Below, piece after piece: positions 9,422 to 16,313 of a stretch of DNA of 64,000 bases. Location: assembly GCF_016278365.1 (NCBI RefSeq), contig NZ_JADQBZ010000005.1, positions 1 through 64,000 on the forward strand, written 5' to 3'. Position 1 is the first letter of the stretch. The number at the start of each line of letters is the position of its first letter. The notes under the pieces were generated by a model. That model did not search any database, was not told the origin of the DNA, and worked only from the letters and a program-made list of their open reading frames with translations. Source of the stretch: Methanolobus sp. (GTDB taxonomy: Archaea; Halobacteriota; Methanosarcinia; Methanosarcinales; Methanosarcinaceae). The position numbers and the translations under genes are program-made.

Positions 9422-10678
9422 ATGAATAAGTACACTGTCAGATGCTTGCACTGTGGAGAGGCCCATGAACCATATTCACTGAACTGCAGGAATGGTGACG
9501 ACGCTCTCCTGCGTGTCGAGTATTCAGCCAGGCAGCTTCATCCTGCGGACATGCCCGGTATATGGCGGTATAAGGAATGGCTGCCTGTACAAGGCATCAT
9601 CGAAGAAGGTTCGGGAAAGACTGTCACTTACAAAAGTGAAAAGCTTGCCTCGGAATTGGGGCTTAATGACCTGTGGATCGCCTTCAATGGTTACTGGCCT
9701 CAAAGAGATGCCAGGATGATGACCTGCACATTCAAGGACCTGGAATCATTCCCGACCATGCAGCGACTGAAGGAACAGGATGAGGTAAGGATAATGGTGG
9801 TTGCATCTGCAGGCAACACCGCAAGAGCCTTTTCCCATGTGTGCAGCATCACCGGCCAGCCTTTGCTTCTGGTTGTTCCGCAGGAGAGCTCACACAGGTT
9901 ATGGACGACTCATGAAGACACCTCCGCGGTCTTCCTGGCTACAGTGGAAGGTGATTACTTTGATGCTATTTCCCTTGCAGGCAAGATTGCCTCAAGAGAA
10001 GGGTTTGTAAATGAAGGCGGGGCCAGGAACGTCGCCAGGAGGGATGGCATGGGGACTGTTATGCTTGATGCCGTCCTCACGGCAGGTTCACTTCCCGACC
10101 ATTATTTCCAGGCGGTGGGAAGCGGTACAGGCGGAATATCTGCATGGGAGGCATCCATGCGGCTGATAGAGGATGGCAGATTCGGCTCAAAGCTCCCGCG
10201 GCTTCATCTGGCACAGAGCCTCCCCTGTGCTCCGCTGTACTCTCTTAAGTATGGAACTGATGCTGTTGCACCAGAATGCCCCGGGGGGATGTATGATGAC
10301 GTGCTGTTCAACCGGAAACCCCCGTATGCGATAAAAGGGGGCGTCAGGGACGCGCTCGAAGCTACAGGCGGAACTGTATATGCAATAAGGAATAAGGAAG
10401 CGGCTGAATCACAGTCAGTATTTGAAAAAGAAGAAGGCATAGACATAAATCCTGCTGCTGCGGTGGCTGTTGCAGCGCTGGTGAAAGCAGTACAGGAAGG
10501 CAATGTCCAGCCCGACGACCGGATAGTCCTGAACATAACCGGCGGCGGTCAGAAGAGGCTGATGCAGGACTATCCCGTAAAGATAATTGAGCCATCTGTA
10601 AAGGTATCTGCAAAGGACCCCAATGCAGAGGATATGATTGTAACTATGGTACAAAATGTGTTTGGTGTATATAAATGA
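9422..10678 (+). CDS. Cysteate synthase (threonine synthase-like, PLP)
   Basis: A 418-residue fold-type II PLP enzyme. The PLP lysine is probably K105 in TFKDLE, and GSGTGG (about 237-242) is the phosphate-binding loop. An N-terminal CxxC followed by a third Cys (C8, C11, C22) resembles the zinc-like knuckle of this threonine-synthase subgroup. In Methanosarcinales cysteate synthase converts O-phosphoserine and sulfite to cysteate, the first committed step of coenzyme M synthesis in these organisms. The assignment rests on this subgroup and on ComDE four genes downstream in the same operon. It overlaps the next gene by ATGA. Ordinary threonine synthase is the main alternative, made unlikely by the context. 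Confidence 0.85.
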
Positions 10679-11439
10679 ATGAAGAACTGACTCTAACAAT
10701 ACTTGGCGGTGTCGATAAGGACGGGGTACCGGAACCTGTGAAATTCCTGGAAGTAAGCAAAGGCGAGATCATAGGAATTGTGGGGCCAACCGGTTCGGGC
10801 AAGAGCACCCTCATAGATGATATAGAACAGCTTGCCCAGGGAGACACGCCTACCGGCAGGTCCATACTTATCAACGGTAAAAGACCGGATGCTGGTATCC
10901 GTGTAGACCCGCGGAAAAAACTTGTGGCACAGTTGTCCCAGAAGATGCATTTCCTGGCAGACATGACAGTTGTGGATTTCCTTCACATGCATGCGCGCAG
11001 CAGGGGTAAGGGGCCTGAGCTCGTAGACAGGGTCATCGAACTTGCCAACACACTGACAGGAGAGCCGATATCCCCTGACCATTACCTGACAGTTCTCAGC
11101 GGAGGCCAGTCACGGTCCCTGATGACAGCAGACATTGCGGTCATAAGTGATTCTCCTGTAGTCCTGATAGACGAGATCGAGAATGCAGGTATTAAGAAAC
11201 AAGAGGCTCTCCGGCTGCTTTCGGGTGAGGGGAAGATCGTTGTTGTAGTCACTCATGATCCTGTCCTGGCACTGATGGCATCCCGCAGGATAGTTATCCG
11301 CAACGGTGCAATGATGGACATTATCACTACCAGCAGGGAGGAGCAGGATGTGTGTGGCAGGATCACTCAGGTGGACAACTGGCTCATGTCCCTGAGGGAT
11401 ACCATTCGCAGGGGAGAGATCGTAGAGGAGCTGGCATGA
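10675..11439 (+). CDS. Soluble ABC-type ATPase in the coenzyme M operon
   Basis: A 254-residue single ABC ATPase domain with Walker [10 protein letters not shown] (37-45), signature LSGGQ (141-145), Walker B VVLIDE (161-166) and H-loop H194. No permease or binding protein is encoded nearby and there is no membrane segment, so it is not an obvious transporter subunit. The domain is joined to its neighbours by 4-nt ATGA overlaps at both ends, which implies coupled translation. Methanogens use a soluble ABC protein (component A2) to activate methyl-CoM reductase; by analogy this one may drive ATP-dependent reduction or assembly of a metal centre needed for CoM synthesis. That role is inference. 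Confidence 0.85.
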
Positions 11440-12134
11440 AGCTGGTGGTACTTGCGGGTACTCCCGGTTCAGGTAAAACCTCCGTGCTGCTCCATACCAT
11501 CAGGTCGCTTATTAAAAGCGGAAAGAAACCGGCTGTCGTTAAGGTCGATTGCCTGTGGACAGATGACGATCAGCGCTTCAGCAAGCTTGGCATCCCGGTA
11601 CATGTGGGTCTTGCAAAGGACATGTGCCCCGATCATTTCACTATCTATAACACCGATGCAATGCTGGATTGGGGGGCATCAAATGGCGCTGACATCGTTT
11701 TGAACGAGACTGCAGGACTGTGCCTTCGATGTGCGCCATACCCGGACGAATGCCTGGCCATTTGCGTAATCGATGTCACAACCGGACCTAACACGCCCCT
11801 GAAAGTAGGCCCCCTGCTCACAACTGCGGATATAGTCGTTATGACAAAAGGCGACCTGGTTTCCCAGGCTGAGAGGGAGGTATTCAGGGAGAGGGTGCTT
11901 GATGTCAATCCTGGGTGTATCATAGTTGAGGCGAACGGCCTTACCGGAAAAGGGGCTTTCGAACTTGCTGAAATGGTCACCGAAGGTCCGGATGTGTGTG
12001 ACAACATGGTGTTGCGATACAATCCGCCGCTTGCCATATGCTCGCTGTGTACAGGAGAGACCCGTGTGGCGCGCAAGCATCACATGGGAGTGCTGAGACA
12101 GCTTGATGGTTTCATGGAGTACAGGGGTGAGTGA
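11436..12134 (+). CDS. HypB/UreG-like P-loop GTPase, possible metallochaperone
   Basis: A 232-residue SIMIBI-class P-loop protein: Walker [10 protein letters not shown] (7-15), a conserved Asp loop VKVDC near 42, a switch-like NETAGLC, and TKGD (in place of NKxD) for the guanine base. It resembles HypB/UreG/CobW-type G3E proteins that deliver metals. Cysteines cluster in [17 protein letters not shown], where HypB proteins have a metal-binding CP loop, and another CSLC pair lies near residue 197. ATG start overlaps the ABC gene stop (ATGA) and the stop lies 3 nt before the next start. A role in Fe-S or metal insertion for the CoM pathway is inferred, not shown. Confidence 0.8.
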
Positions 12135-12137
12135 ACA

Positions 12138-12770
12138 TTGACCGATATCCTGTCACTCCTGCCTGGGTATAATTGCGGAAGTTGTGGCTTCAGGCAGTGC
12201 AGGGATTTTGCTGCGCAGCTGAAAAGCTCGGAGGATCTCCAGCGATGTCCTTTCCTCGAGAGGGATACTTTCCGGGAAAATCTCGAAAAACTGACGGCTC
12301 TTGTAGGTATCGACACATCTCAGGAAGAAAAGATAATAGGCATTATCGACGGGCTTGAAGCGGATTTCATGCTGGCTCCTCTCAGGGACGAATGCTCCTG
12401 CAGGGAGTTCATCCATCCCTTTGATGGCTCAGTTGAGGTACAGGTCGGTGATTTCATCAGATACAGGCCACTTGCCTGTCCAGTCACTCATTTTGCAAAA
12501 GTGATCGATATAGATCCTGGCATATACACTATACACCTTGTGGGCCCCTTGCACCGTTTGGGCAGGGAGGACTTCAAGTTCAAGGATCTTGGTCTTTGCA
12601 TGATACTTGCCTTTGAGGGCAAAATTTCCAGAGGGCAGCTTCCAAAGGTCGGCCAGACAGTCAAATTCATCCCGGAATACTGTATGATGCAGAAAGTCCA
12701 CTCCGGCATGGTCGTGGGTGTAGAGGGTAAGGATATACGTATAGAGGGTATAGACCTGAAGGTATGGTGA
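12138..12770 (+). CDS. Fe-S (PF04060-like) protein in the coenzyme M operon
   Basis: A 210-residue protein with a TTG start 3 nt after the GTPase stop. The N-terminus carries CGSCGFRQC followed by CPF (Cys at about 13, 16, 21 and 36), the four-cysteine [4Fe-4S] motif found in corrinoid Fe-S proteins and RnfB. A second CSC pair sits near residue 84, followed by a beta-rich region (about 95-210) without a recognised fold. It is translationally linked to ComD (7-nt overlap). A one-electron carrier that works with the ATPase and GTPase upstream is the simplest reading, but no homologue of known function comes to mind. Confidence 0.8.
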
Positions 12771-13282
12771 AACCTTTGCCGGTGGATGTAACCTCTCCGG
12801 AGGCTGTGTACCAGGGTATGAAGAGAGCAGGCATTGACTTTGTAGTCAGTGTGCCCTGCCTTAACCTGAAGGAAGTTATCCCAATGGTGGATCGGGACCC
12901 TGATATCATCCATGTGCCTGTGACCAGGGAGGAAGAGGGTGTCGGAGTATGTGCAGGCGCCTATATGGGAGGCAAAAGGCCTGCCATGCTGATGCAAAAC
13001 TCGGGGCTTGGGAATTCTGTCAATGCGCTTGCCTCTTTGAATCAATTGTACGGCATTCCTCTTGTAATGATAATAAGCCACCGCGGGGTTGAAGGTGAGC
13101 CTATATGTGCCCAGGTGCCCATGGGGGAGCTGACTACGCAGTTGCTGGAAATACTCGAAATCCCTTATTTTATTCCGGATTCAAAGGCTGATGCAATAGA
13201 GAAGATACAGGTAGCCTGGAAAACCGCACTTGAGGGAAGGAGACCTTCTGCAGTGCTTTTGCCAATCCCTTTCTGGAGGTAA
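12764..13282 (+). CDS. comD: Sulfopyruvate decarboxylase subunit alpha
   Basis: A 172-residue pyrimidine-binding half of a ThDP enzyme. [10 protein letters not shown] (about 54-63) carries the glutamate that activates ThDP, and the [13 protein letters not shown] segment is typical of ComD and phosphonopyruvate decarboxylase. With ComE it converts sulfopyruvate to sulfoacetaldehyde, the penultimate step of coenzyme M synthesis. ATG overlaps the previous stop by 7 nt; a GTG three bases later is an alternative start. ComE follows after 7 nt. In Methanosarcina the two subunits are fused; here they are separate genes. Confidence 0.93.
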
Positions 13283-13289
13283 TATAAGT

Positions 13290-13853
13290 ATGCAACGTAT
13301 CGACGCTATCAGGGACATAGCCCGAAAAGCAGGGCAAGATGATGCTCTCCTTGTATGTAATATCGGTATACCCTGCAAGGAACTCTACAGCGTATGCGAT
13401 ACTCCTGGCAATTTCTACATGCTCGGTTCCATGGGCCTGGCCTCGTCCATCGGTCTTGGCCTTGCACTTTCCCTTCCCCGGAGGATGATCATAGCCATTG
13501 ATGGCGACGGCTCTGTACTCATGAATCTTGGGAGCCTGGCAACCATAGCCACACAGGCCCCGGAAAATTATCTTCTTGTCATAATTGATAACGGCTCTTA
13601 CGGTTCCACAGGCGATCAGCCTACAGCAACATCAAAAGGAGCTGATCTGGCAGAGATTGCAAAGGGAGCCGGCAATAGCAGGGTCTGCCGGACCGACAGT
13701 CATGAGAAACTGAAACATATCCTGCAGGGTAATGATCACGGTATTGTCGTTGTGAAAGTGGATCCCGGGAATGCAGATGTTCCAAATATCAGCATGTGTC
13801 CGGGAGATATAATGCGCAGGTTCATGGCCGGATCGTATCAACCATCTGACTAA
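13290..13853 (+). CDS. comE: Sulfopyruvate decarboxylase subunit beta
   Basis: A 187-residue ThDP-binding half. IDGDGSVLMN followed some 20 residues later by IIDNGSYGSTG is the GDG...N diphosphate/metal motif. The ATG at 13290 is chosen because a strong GGAGGT (13275-13280) precedes it and it falls just after the comD stop; an in-frame extension back to 13230 would run inside comD. It pairs with ComD to make sulfoacetaldehyde. The last 32 nt overlap, tail to tail, with the DUF39-ferredoxin gene on the other strand. Confidence 0.93.
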   Translation: MQRIDAIRDIARKAGQDDALLVCNIGIPCKELYSVCDTPGNFYMLGSMGLASSIGLGLALSLPRRMIIAIDGDGSVLMNLGSLATIATQAPENYLLVIIDNGSYGSTGDQPTATSKGADLAEIAKGAGNSRVCRTDSHEKLKHILQGNDHGIVVVKVDPGNADVPNISMCPGDIMRRFMAGSYQPSD

Positions 13854-15117
13854 TCCTAAAAGAGCCTTCAAGTATCATTCTTTTGAGCTTTTCCTCAAGC
13901 TCCAACGCTCTTTTCCGGTCAGACTGCCTCAGCACTATTGGAACCTCGTGTATCCTGCCTTCCATCTCGAACCTGATGCTCCCAAGCTCTGCGCGGAATA
14001 CATTTCCGGGACATTGGGTAGTACACAGGCCACAGTTGAAACACTGTTTCATGTTCATGACCGGCCTGTCATTATTGTAATGTATCGCATCCATAGGGCA
14101 GCACTCTGCAGCACTGCATTCTTCGCATTGGATACATGATGAAGGCCTGAACTCCACGGAGATGTCGGTGCCCCTCCAGCCGTCTGCATAACTGGTACTG
14201 CCAATCGTCACGCGCCTGTCCACGTCCATTACGGGCATCGGTACATCCGTATCTGTCACAATGATAGCATCAAGCACTGACTGGCTGACAACGGGGATAG
14301 GTATCGCCCATGAGACTATGCACTCGGGCCCGGCAGAAGTGGAGAACCCTCCCATGAGTGAGGGGTCCATATCGTGCATATCTGCAAATCCGGTGAGGTT
14401 TGGCCTTGCCGGACTGCTGCGTGTCCCTTCTCCGATGACAAAACCCTGTGCACCGTTCATGAGCATCCGTGTGCCTATTCCGATTGTTTCAAGCTGCGGG
14501 TCATTCTTCAGAGGATTGATCTGGCCGCATCCTGAAAATGTCGCAGTCTTCATATCGGGCTCGAGTTCCGTGGCGTGGAATATCGTGCCTACAGGTTCCC
14601 CGGAACAGTTAACGAATGCGGCATAGTTCTTGAATGTGTGCCTGGTGGCAAACAGTTTTGCATGTGGTATCCCATCCAGTGTGATTTTTGTGTGGAAAGT
14701 CTCGTTTCCTTCAGTGGTTACTGCAACATCTATTGGCTTCTTCTCTGCCATCTCCCGGAAAAGATGGCCTGCGCCGTATCCGGGAATCGTGTGTGAATGT
14801 GCTGTTCCGAAAACCACCAGATCGAGCATGCTGAGGCTTTCGTTCGGACAGGGTCCTACATGTGCGGTTACTCCGTTAAGGAAAACCTTTGACGCTCTCT
14901 TGAAGGGAAAAGGAGATTCTACCGGGAAGGAAAACACGGCATAGGTCCCGCTCATTACCGCTCGTGTAGCGGTGGTCACCACATCAACATCTCTTATGGT
15001 GATATTCTCCCCTTTGTCCACAAGTTCGCAGATCTCCTGCGAGGTCATCACTACTGCATCGTTACTGCTGATCTTCCTTTTAATATCTTCAATTGAACGC
15101 TCCACGATATTACCCAT
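13822..15117 (-). CDS. DUF39-ferredoxin protein (methanogenesis marker 16 type)
   Basis: A 431-residue protein: an N-terminal DUF39/COG1900 domain (about 1-320) and a C-terminal dicluster ferredoxin (about 328-374) with two CxxCxxC...C(P) motifs. Members with this layout are the methanogenesis marker 16 metalloproteins. The COG1900 relative MA1821 of Methanosarcina acetivorans, with a ferredoxin partner, makes homocysteine from aspartate semialdehyde and sulfide. Placed tail to tail with comE, this paralogue is a good candidate for the equivalent step on sulfoacetaldehyde that makes coenzyme M, an inference. ATG 15117 is preferred (GGTGAG just upstream) over a GTG at 15129. Confidence 0.85.
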   Translation of the reverse strand: MGNIVERSIEDIKRKISSNDAVVMTSQEICELVDKGENITIRDVDVVTTATRAVMSGTYAVFSFPVESPFPFKRASKVFLNGVTAHVGPCPNESLSMLDLVVFGTAHSHTIPGYGAGHLFREMAEKKPIDVAVTTEGNETFHTKITLDGIPHAKLFATRHTFKNYAAFVNCSGEPVGTIFHATELEPDMKTATFSGCGQINPLKNDPQLETIGIGTRMLMNGAQGFVIGEGTRSSPARPNLTGFADMHDMDPSLMGGFSTSAGPECIVSWAIPIPVVSQSVLDAIIVTDTDVPMPVMDVDRRVTIGSTSYADGWRGTDISVEFRPSSCIQCEECSAAECCPMDAIHYNNDRPVMNMKQCFNCGLCTTQCPGNVFRAELGSIRFEMEGRIHEVPIVLRQSDRKRALELEEKLKRMILEGSFRISQMVDTIRP

Positions 15118-15179
15118 GTATCCACTCACCGGATGTTCTAAAAGAAGATAGGTAACGGTATTTAATTTAAGTTTTGCTA

Positions 15180-16313
15180 TCAGTCCAGACCGAGGATACT
15201 TGCCAGCTCAAGCCCTTCGCTTCCGATCTCGGAAAGCCTGTCAAAGGCCTCTTGCTTGGTTATGTATTTCTCGGTACGTGTGCCATCGGAAGATTCTACC
15301 TTGATGGTAATCTCGTTCTTGACATAACCGCGCTCGAAGGATTCCCTGACAATTTCCCCATACTGCTGAGCTATCAGCTTGAGGCAGTCGAAAATCTCAT
15401 TATTGCGAACAGCATCTCTTCCGTCAAGCATTACCTGGGTAAGGGTCTGTGATCGTATGAACAATTCTACATATTTACGCAGTTCGCTCATAAGGTCCTC
15501 GATACTTTCCAGCTTAACTGACTTTATGAGGGTCTCATCAGCTGTTATATCTGTTTCGCCTAAGTTGATCTGGCAGTTACCTGCATTGCAGCTGATCCTG
15601 AACTGATGTTCTTTCTTCTTTGTCTCGAATGTAGCATCGATATAGTCAACGCCGTCATAATTCACAGAGGCGATAAGATATTCGGATACATCGATCATCT
15701 TGACCTTGTTTTCCTTGTGGATCAGGCCGGATTTTGTCCATGTAGGCAGGAACAGGTCTCCATATGCTTCTTTGATGGTAAGTGTCTCATGGGAATAAGT
15801 TAATTCGGATGTATATTCCATACCAGAGAAAACGGCTTTCATTGTGCCACTGAGGACACCTTCCTTCATGGAAACATGATACTGGTTAGTTGTCCCGTAT
15901 ATGCCTGATCTGAAAAGAGGATTCAGAGTGGCAAGGATCTCTTTCTCCAGTTTATACAATCCGCTTTCAGAATCGTTCCTTATAATGTCCAGTCTTTGGT
16001 TGAGACTCTTGAGCCCTTTTGTGGAGCTAGTGATACAGGCATCCATAACAGCGTTACGGCATTCCAGTATTTCTTTTTCCCTTGCATCCCTGGAAAGGTG
16101 ATCTACATAAGCCTGGACATCCTTACTGAATTTATCCAGCTCCATTATCCTTGATTCGAGGGAGGATATCTCCTCGGATTCATCTTCGCTAAGCTCAATG
16201 GCAGAATTTTCCAGGGGAATGACTTTCTTGGCAGTTCCTATAAAGTCATTCAGGTCCTGAATAAAATCCCTTTGCAATGGTAATGCAGTTGAGTCCTGGA
16301 ATGTGTATTTCAT
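15180..16313 (-). CDS. Hypothetical protein with coiled-coil N-terminal half (377 aa)
   Basis: No family recognised. Residues 40-130 are acidic and heptad-like (EDESEEISSLESRIMELDKF and onwards), suggesting a coiled coil; the middle (about 135-260) is beta-rich with alternating hydrophobics; the C-terminus is helical again. No signal peptide, membrane segment or catalytic motif stands out. It has its own strong TATA box (16364-16376) and a GGGAT Shine-Dalgarno, so it is transcribed separately from tyrS upstream. The next gene downstream, the DUF39-ferredoxin protein, starts 62 nt after its stop and may share the transcript. Confidence 0.75.
   Translation of the reverse strand: MKYTFQDSTALPLQRDFIQDLNDFIGTAKKVIPLENSAIELSEDESEEISSLESRIMELDKFSKDVQAYVDHLSRDAREKEILECRNAVMDACITSSTKGLKSLNQRLDIIRNDSESGLYKLEKEILATLNPLFRSGIYGTTNQYHVSMKEGVLSGTMKAVFSGMEYTSELTYSHETLTIKEAYGDLFLPTWTKSGLIHKENKVKMIDVSEYLIASVNYDGVDYIDATFETKKKEHQFRISCNAGNCQINLGETDITADETLIKSVKLESIEDLMSELRKYVELFIRSQTLTQVMLDGRDAVRNNEIFDCLKLIAQQYGEIVRESFERGYVKNEITIKVESSDGTRTEKYITKQEAFDRLSEIGSEGLELASILGLD

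Follow-up and report, generated by a model that had tools for sequence, protein, structure and literature searches.

A predicted coenzyme M synthase of the methanogenesis marker 16 family beside comDE in a Methanolobus-like methanogen

Described enzymes of the COG1900 type

The HcyBio domain (PF01837), formerly called DUF39, is the domain of the COG1900 proteins. One described type is methanogenesis marker 16 (MMP16), or ComF, represented by MA3299 and MJ1681 (TIGR03287, COG1900d). White's work of 2019 with MJ1681 in E. coli is said to be the basis for proposing this family as the enzyme that forms coenzyme M (CoM). Chadwick et al. 2025 cite the earlier report of CoM formation from sulfoacetaldehyde by MJ1681 in E. 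coli. In M. acetivorans they made deletions of MA3297, which is cysteate synthase, of MA3298, which is comDE, and of MA3299, which is MMP16 (PMC12068725). Without CoM the MMP16 deletion strain grew at about 70% of the parental rate, and without sulfide it was a CoM auxotroph whose growth was restored by either the gene or CoM, while mutants supplied with sulfide were not absolute CoM auxotrophs (PMC12068725). The deletion strain also showed the transcriptome of CoM starvation, while the study does not settle which compound donates the sulfur, how many electrons are needed and which residues are catalytic (PMC12068725). In the papers that we consulted we found no account of in vitro activity of purified MMP16.

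The second type is the homocysteine-forming L-aspartate semialdehyde sulfurtransferase, or L-ASST (MA1821-MA1822, COG1900a). It shares with the protein analysed here the COG1900 domain, an analogous aldehyde-to-thiol chemistry and the involvement of a ferredoxin. It differs in belonging to a clade of its own, in its catalytic Cys54, in a C-terminal extension (for which we take the name CBS from PMC12068725) and in having its ferredoxin as a separate subunit.

Family and residues of the window protein

The stretch of DNA that we analysed, here called the window, is 64,000 nucleotides long. It contains on the reverse strand an intact open reading frame that encodes 435 amino acids when read from a GTG (13822-15129) and 431 amino acids when read from an ATG (13822-15117). 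The open reading frame, its profile matches and its position in a tree indicate that the 431-residue protein is very probably ComF, the coenzyme M synthase of this Methanolobus-like methanogen. NCBIfam TIGR03287 (methanogenesis marker 16 metalloprotein) matches residues 23-422 over the full model, positions 1-391 of 391, with 513.7 bits and thus above the curated cut-off of 363.95. The closest named match, from a Methanolobus MAG, is 95% identical.

A preliminary description of this DNA had seen a DUF39 domain and a two-cluster ferredoxin in one protein, and both are indeed found in a single chain. The HcyBio match covers residues 21-422 with 338.4 bits (cut-off 26.2), and there are eight cluster cysteines, C328, C331, C334 and C340 followed by C359, C362, C365 and C369; the Fer4 Pfam models alone score slightly below their own cut-offs. 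The ferredoxin part, at about residues 323-374, is an internal insert within the HcyBio region and not a simple C-terminal fusion. An AlphaFold model of the protein (mean pLDDT 87.3, pTM 0.88) gave no Foldseek match at E <= 0.001, so no function can be taken from the fold. In the sequence comparison with PDB chains only the ferredoxin part found matches, and no solved structure resembling the COG1900 part was found.

The host genome encodes two COG1900 proteins. The other one, on a different contig (G000:C6:80615-81625, reverse strand), has 500 residues, carries a C-terminal extension of the COG1900a type and is directly followed by a 130-residue two-cluster ferredoxin, which is the layout of MA1821-MA1822. 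In a tree of 30 sequences a branch with a support of 100/100 divides the MMP16 group, which includes the window protein, from the COG1900a group, which includes the second copy. The residues point the same way. Methanosarcina MMP16 sequences have cysteines at positions 95, 200 and 202 (numbering as in PMC12068725). In the window protein C90 corresponds to position 95 and C197 to position 202, while Ser195 takes the place of the non-essential C200. A further difference from known MMP16 proteins is that the first cluster motif contains an additional cysteine, C339; the full-length family match, the domain layout and the conserved cysteines are shared with them. The Cys54 position of COG1900a is missing in the MMP16 rows of the alignment, which have MSG where COG1900a has MCS.

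These observations bear on whether the window protein could be a second homocysteine-forming aspartate semialdehyde sulfurtransferase that lies near comDE by coincidence. Such a role would fit the common superfamily, the analogous chemistry and the roughly 30% identity to COG1900a proteins, and L-ASST may act as a backup for MMP16 in the cell (PMC12068725). However, the window protein falls in the other, fully supported clade, lacks the essential Cys54 position and the C-terminal extension, and has an internal ferredoxin instead of a separate subunit, and the genome already has its COG1900a and ferredoxin pair, which covers the homocysteine role. We consider this explanation extremely improbable, and reject a COG1900a-type identity on the grounds of clade, cysteines, domains and the separate genomic copy. 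Judged by sequence, the window paralogue is of the MMP16/ComF type and the COG1900a type is encoded separately in the genome.

For the reaction of ComF we suggest the following course. ComDE makes sulfoacetaldehyde, and ComF would replace its aldehyde oxygen by a thiol to give HS-CoM. The aldehyde would be bound by the COG1900 domain, sulfide or donated sulfur would add to it with loss of water, and the resulting thiocarbonyl would be reduced by electrons that the internal ferredoxin relays via its two [4Fe-4S] clusters. Whereas the identity of the protein is based on family membership, gene neighbourhood and the published in vivo role of the M. acetivorans orthologue, the individual steps of the reaction, the source of the sulfur and the path of the electrons are what we infer. 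The mechanism of COG1900a is not simply transferable, since its essential Cys54 is missing from MMP16 and the core cysteines C200/C202 of MMP16 are dispensable in vivo (PMC12068725). The dispensable cysteines could also mean that CoM arises in vivo mainly from an uncatalysed reaction of sulfoacetaldehyde with sulfide, with the protein merely delivering sulfur or electrons. Such an abiotic reaction is on record, and at high sulfide the phenotype of the mutant is hidden (PMC12068725). But the strong auxotrophy without sulfide and the conservation of the protein together with the pathway genes make this very unlikely.

The coenzyme M gene neighbourhood

Together with the predicted ComF gene, its neighbours provide a complete route to CoM. 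Cysteate synthase, the first step of the Methanosarcina-type pathway, is encoded at 9422-10678 on the forward strand (TIGR03844, 595.9 bits, cut-off 324.9). It is followed on the same strand by an ABC-type ATPase at 10675-11439 (PF00005, 57.6 bits), a HypB/CobW-like GTPase at 11352-12134 (PF02492, 46.6 bits; TIGR00073, 52.5 bits, which is below the cut-off) whose true start is probably near 11430, and an Fe-S protein at 12138-12770 (PF04060). Then come, also on the forward strand, the two subunits of sulfopyruvate decarboxylase, alpha (comD, 12764-13282; TIGR03845, 228.6 bits) and beta (comE, 13290-13853; TIGR03846, 233.1 bits). The likely ATG of comE at 13290 is preceded by GGAGG. Cysteate synthase, comD, comE and MMP16 lie within 5.7 kb. 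All these neighbours, including the ATPase, the GTPase and the Fe-S protein, also occur at published ComF loci.

The preliminary description placed the gene tail to tail with comE, which is confirmed, as the stop ends of the two genes share 32 bases (13822-13853). Because MMP16 lies on the opposite strand, it is convergent with comDE and belongs to a separate transcript. On its other side MMP16 adjoins a gene for a 377-residue protein (15180-16313, reverse strand) that had no Pfam or NCBIfam match; of the 80 loci compared below, 23 carry a homologue of it close to MMP16. No RNA families were found in the window.

We compared the neighbourhood with the best-scoring 80 of 263 relatives, a sample that for this reason leans to Methanosarcinales and Methanothrix. 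Close relatives share the gene order of the window. In 66 of the 80 named MMP16 loci comE is found downstream of MMP16 on the opposite strand, with the genes often almost touching, so this arrangement is far from chance. At one locus (L154, JACIVP010000022.1), from a MAG that carries the label Methanosuratincola (Thermoproteota), MMP16 occurs with comDE and groups with Methanothrix sequences; this is either a misbinned contig or a transfer.

The trio of ABC ATPase, HypB-like GTPase and Fe-S protein (10675-12770 in the window) is complete in 17 of the 80 loci and otherwise wholly absent; unlike the window, the Methanosarcina loci that we fetched do not have it beside their MMP16 genes. The same gene clusters, with an ATPase, a Ni-binding GTPase and a COG2000 Fe-S protein, are described without an assigned role in PMC12068725, and our PF04060 protein is probably the one called COG2000 Fe-S protein in the legend of Fig 2 there. 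The trio might be a dedicated module that delivers metal or sulfur for CoM synthesis, a suggestion we regard as rather unlikely. Since it also adjoins comDE in two loci (L076 and L080) of a family without MMP16, such a module would serve earlier steps or the whole pathway and not ComF alone.

The conserved neighbours are also relevant to the question whether ComF additionally or partly serves another thiol cofactor, for example coenzyme B, jointly with the COG1900a protein. This would be consistent with the failure to obtain an M. acetivorans strain lacking both MMP16 and L-ASST, even when CoM and methionine were supplied (PMC12068725). However, CoM alone corrects the growth defect of the MMP16 deletion, and the conserved neighbours are CoM genes, so that we find a second cofactor unlikely.

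The reading of the window protein as ComF thus draws on the TIGR03287 score, the clean split from COG1900a and the cysteines C90 and C197, on the pathway genes and the conserved position of comE, on the separate COG1900a and ferredoxin pair, and on the published MA3299 genetics and the CoM formation by MJ1681 in E. coli (PMC12068725). The preliminary description had proposed that the paralogue beside comDE may form CoM, and the MMP16/ComF type of the protein and the deletion phenotype of its orthologue agree with this; the idea is correct yet not new, as it was already published (PMC12068725). The accompanying view that the enzyme was unsettled is largely outdated, given the proposal of 2019 and the genetics of 2025, and holds for the chemistry alone (PMC12068725). 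The locus is an ordinary, textbook MMP16 copy at its usual site beside the CoM genes.

Lineages without MMP16

We surveyed 60 genomes of the order, among them those of the host's family (f1) and of families f2, f3 and f5. MMP16 scores above the cut-off in all 14 f1 genomes and in 11 of 14 f3 genomes. One locus (L087, G014:C1:838699-839891) has cysteate synthase as two overlapping reading frames (model positions 184-395 and 1-194), either by a frameshift or by a sequencing error. None of the 14 f2 genomes (for example those with L074-L080) has MMP16, yet cysteate synthase and comDE occur in the majority, and COG1900a is found in 12 of the 14; there COG1900a may do both jobs.

In family f5 we found cysteate synthase, a mostly full-length McrA and ComDE, the latter as a fused comDE, for example at L062 (G007:C15:164301-166654). 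A nitrate reductase alpha chain above the family cut-off in one f5 genome suggests that this is a Methanoperedens-like group. In a wider set of f5 genomes PF01837 was found in none of 34 and ComD in 31 of 34. With no COG1900 protein, the last step of CoM synthesis has no known enzyme in f5 and must involve a different enzyme, an uncatalysed reaction or imported CoM. Among the recurrent neighbours of comDE, which we judged by eye, we saw no sulfurtransferase candidate for a replacement CoM synthase in f5 or f2; they include a cobyrinate diamide synthase-type protein in f5, and a geranylgeranyl reductase-type and a radical SAM-type protein in f2. As f2 and f5 have the enzymes for sulfoacetaldehyde without MMP16, MMP16 is not the sole way to take the last step.

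Coenzyme M is required for biological methane formation and for anaerobic methane oxidation, which made the last step of its synthesis important as long as no enzyme had been assigned to it. By now the enzyme has a name and has been tested genetically, and the window locus is one further clean example. What remains of value lies in the unsolved chemistry and in the lineages that make do without MMP16.
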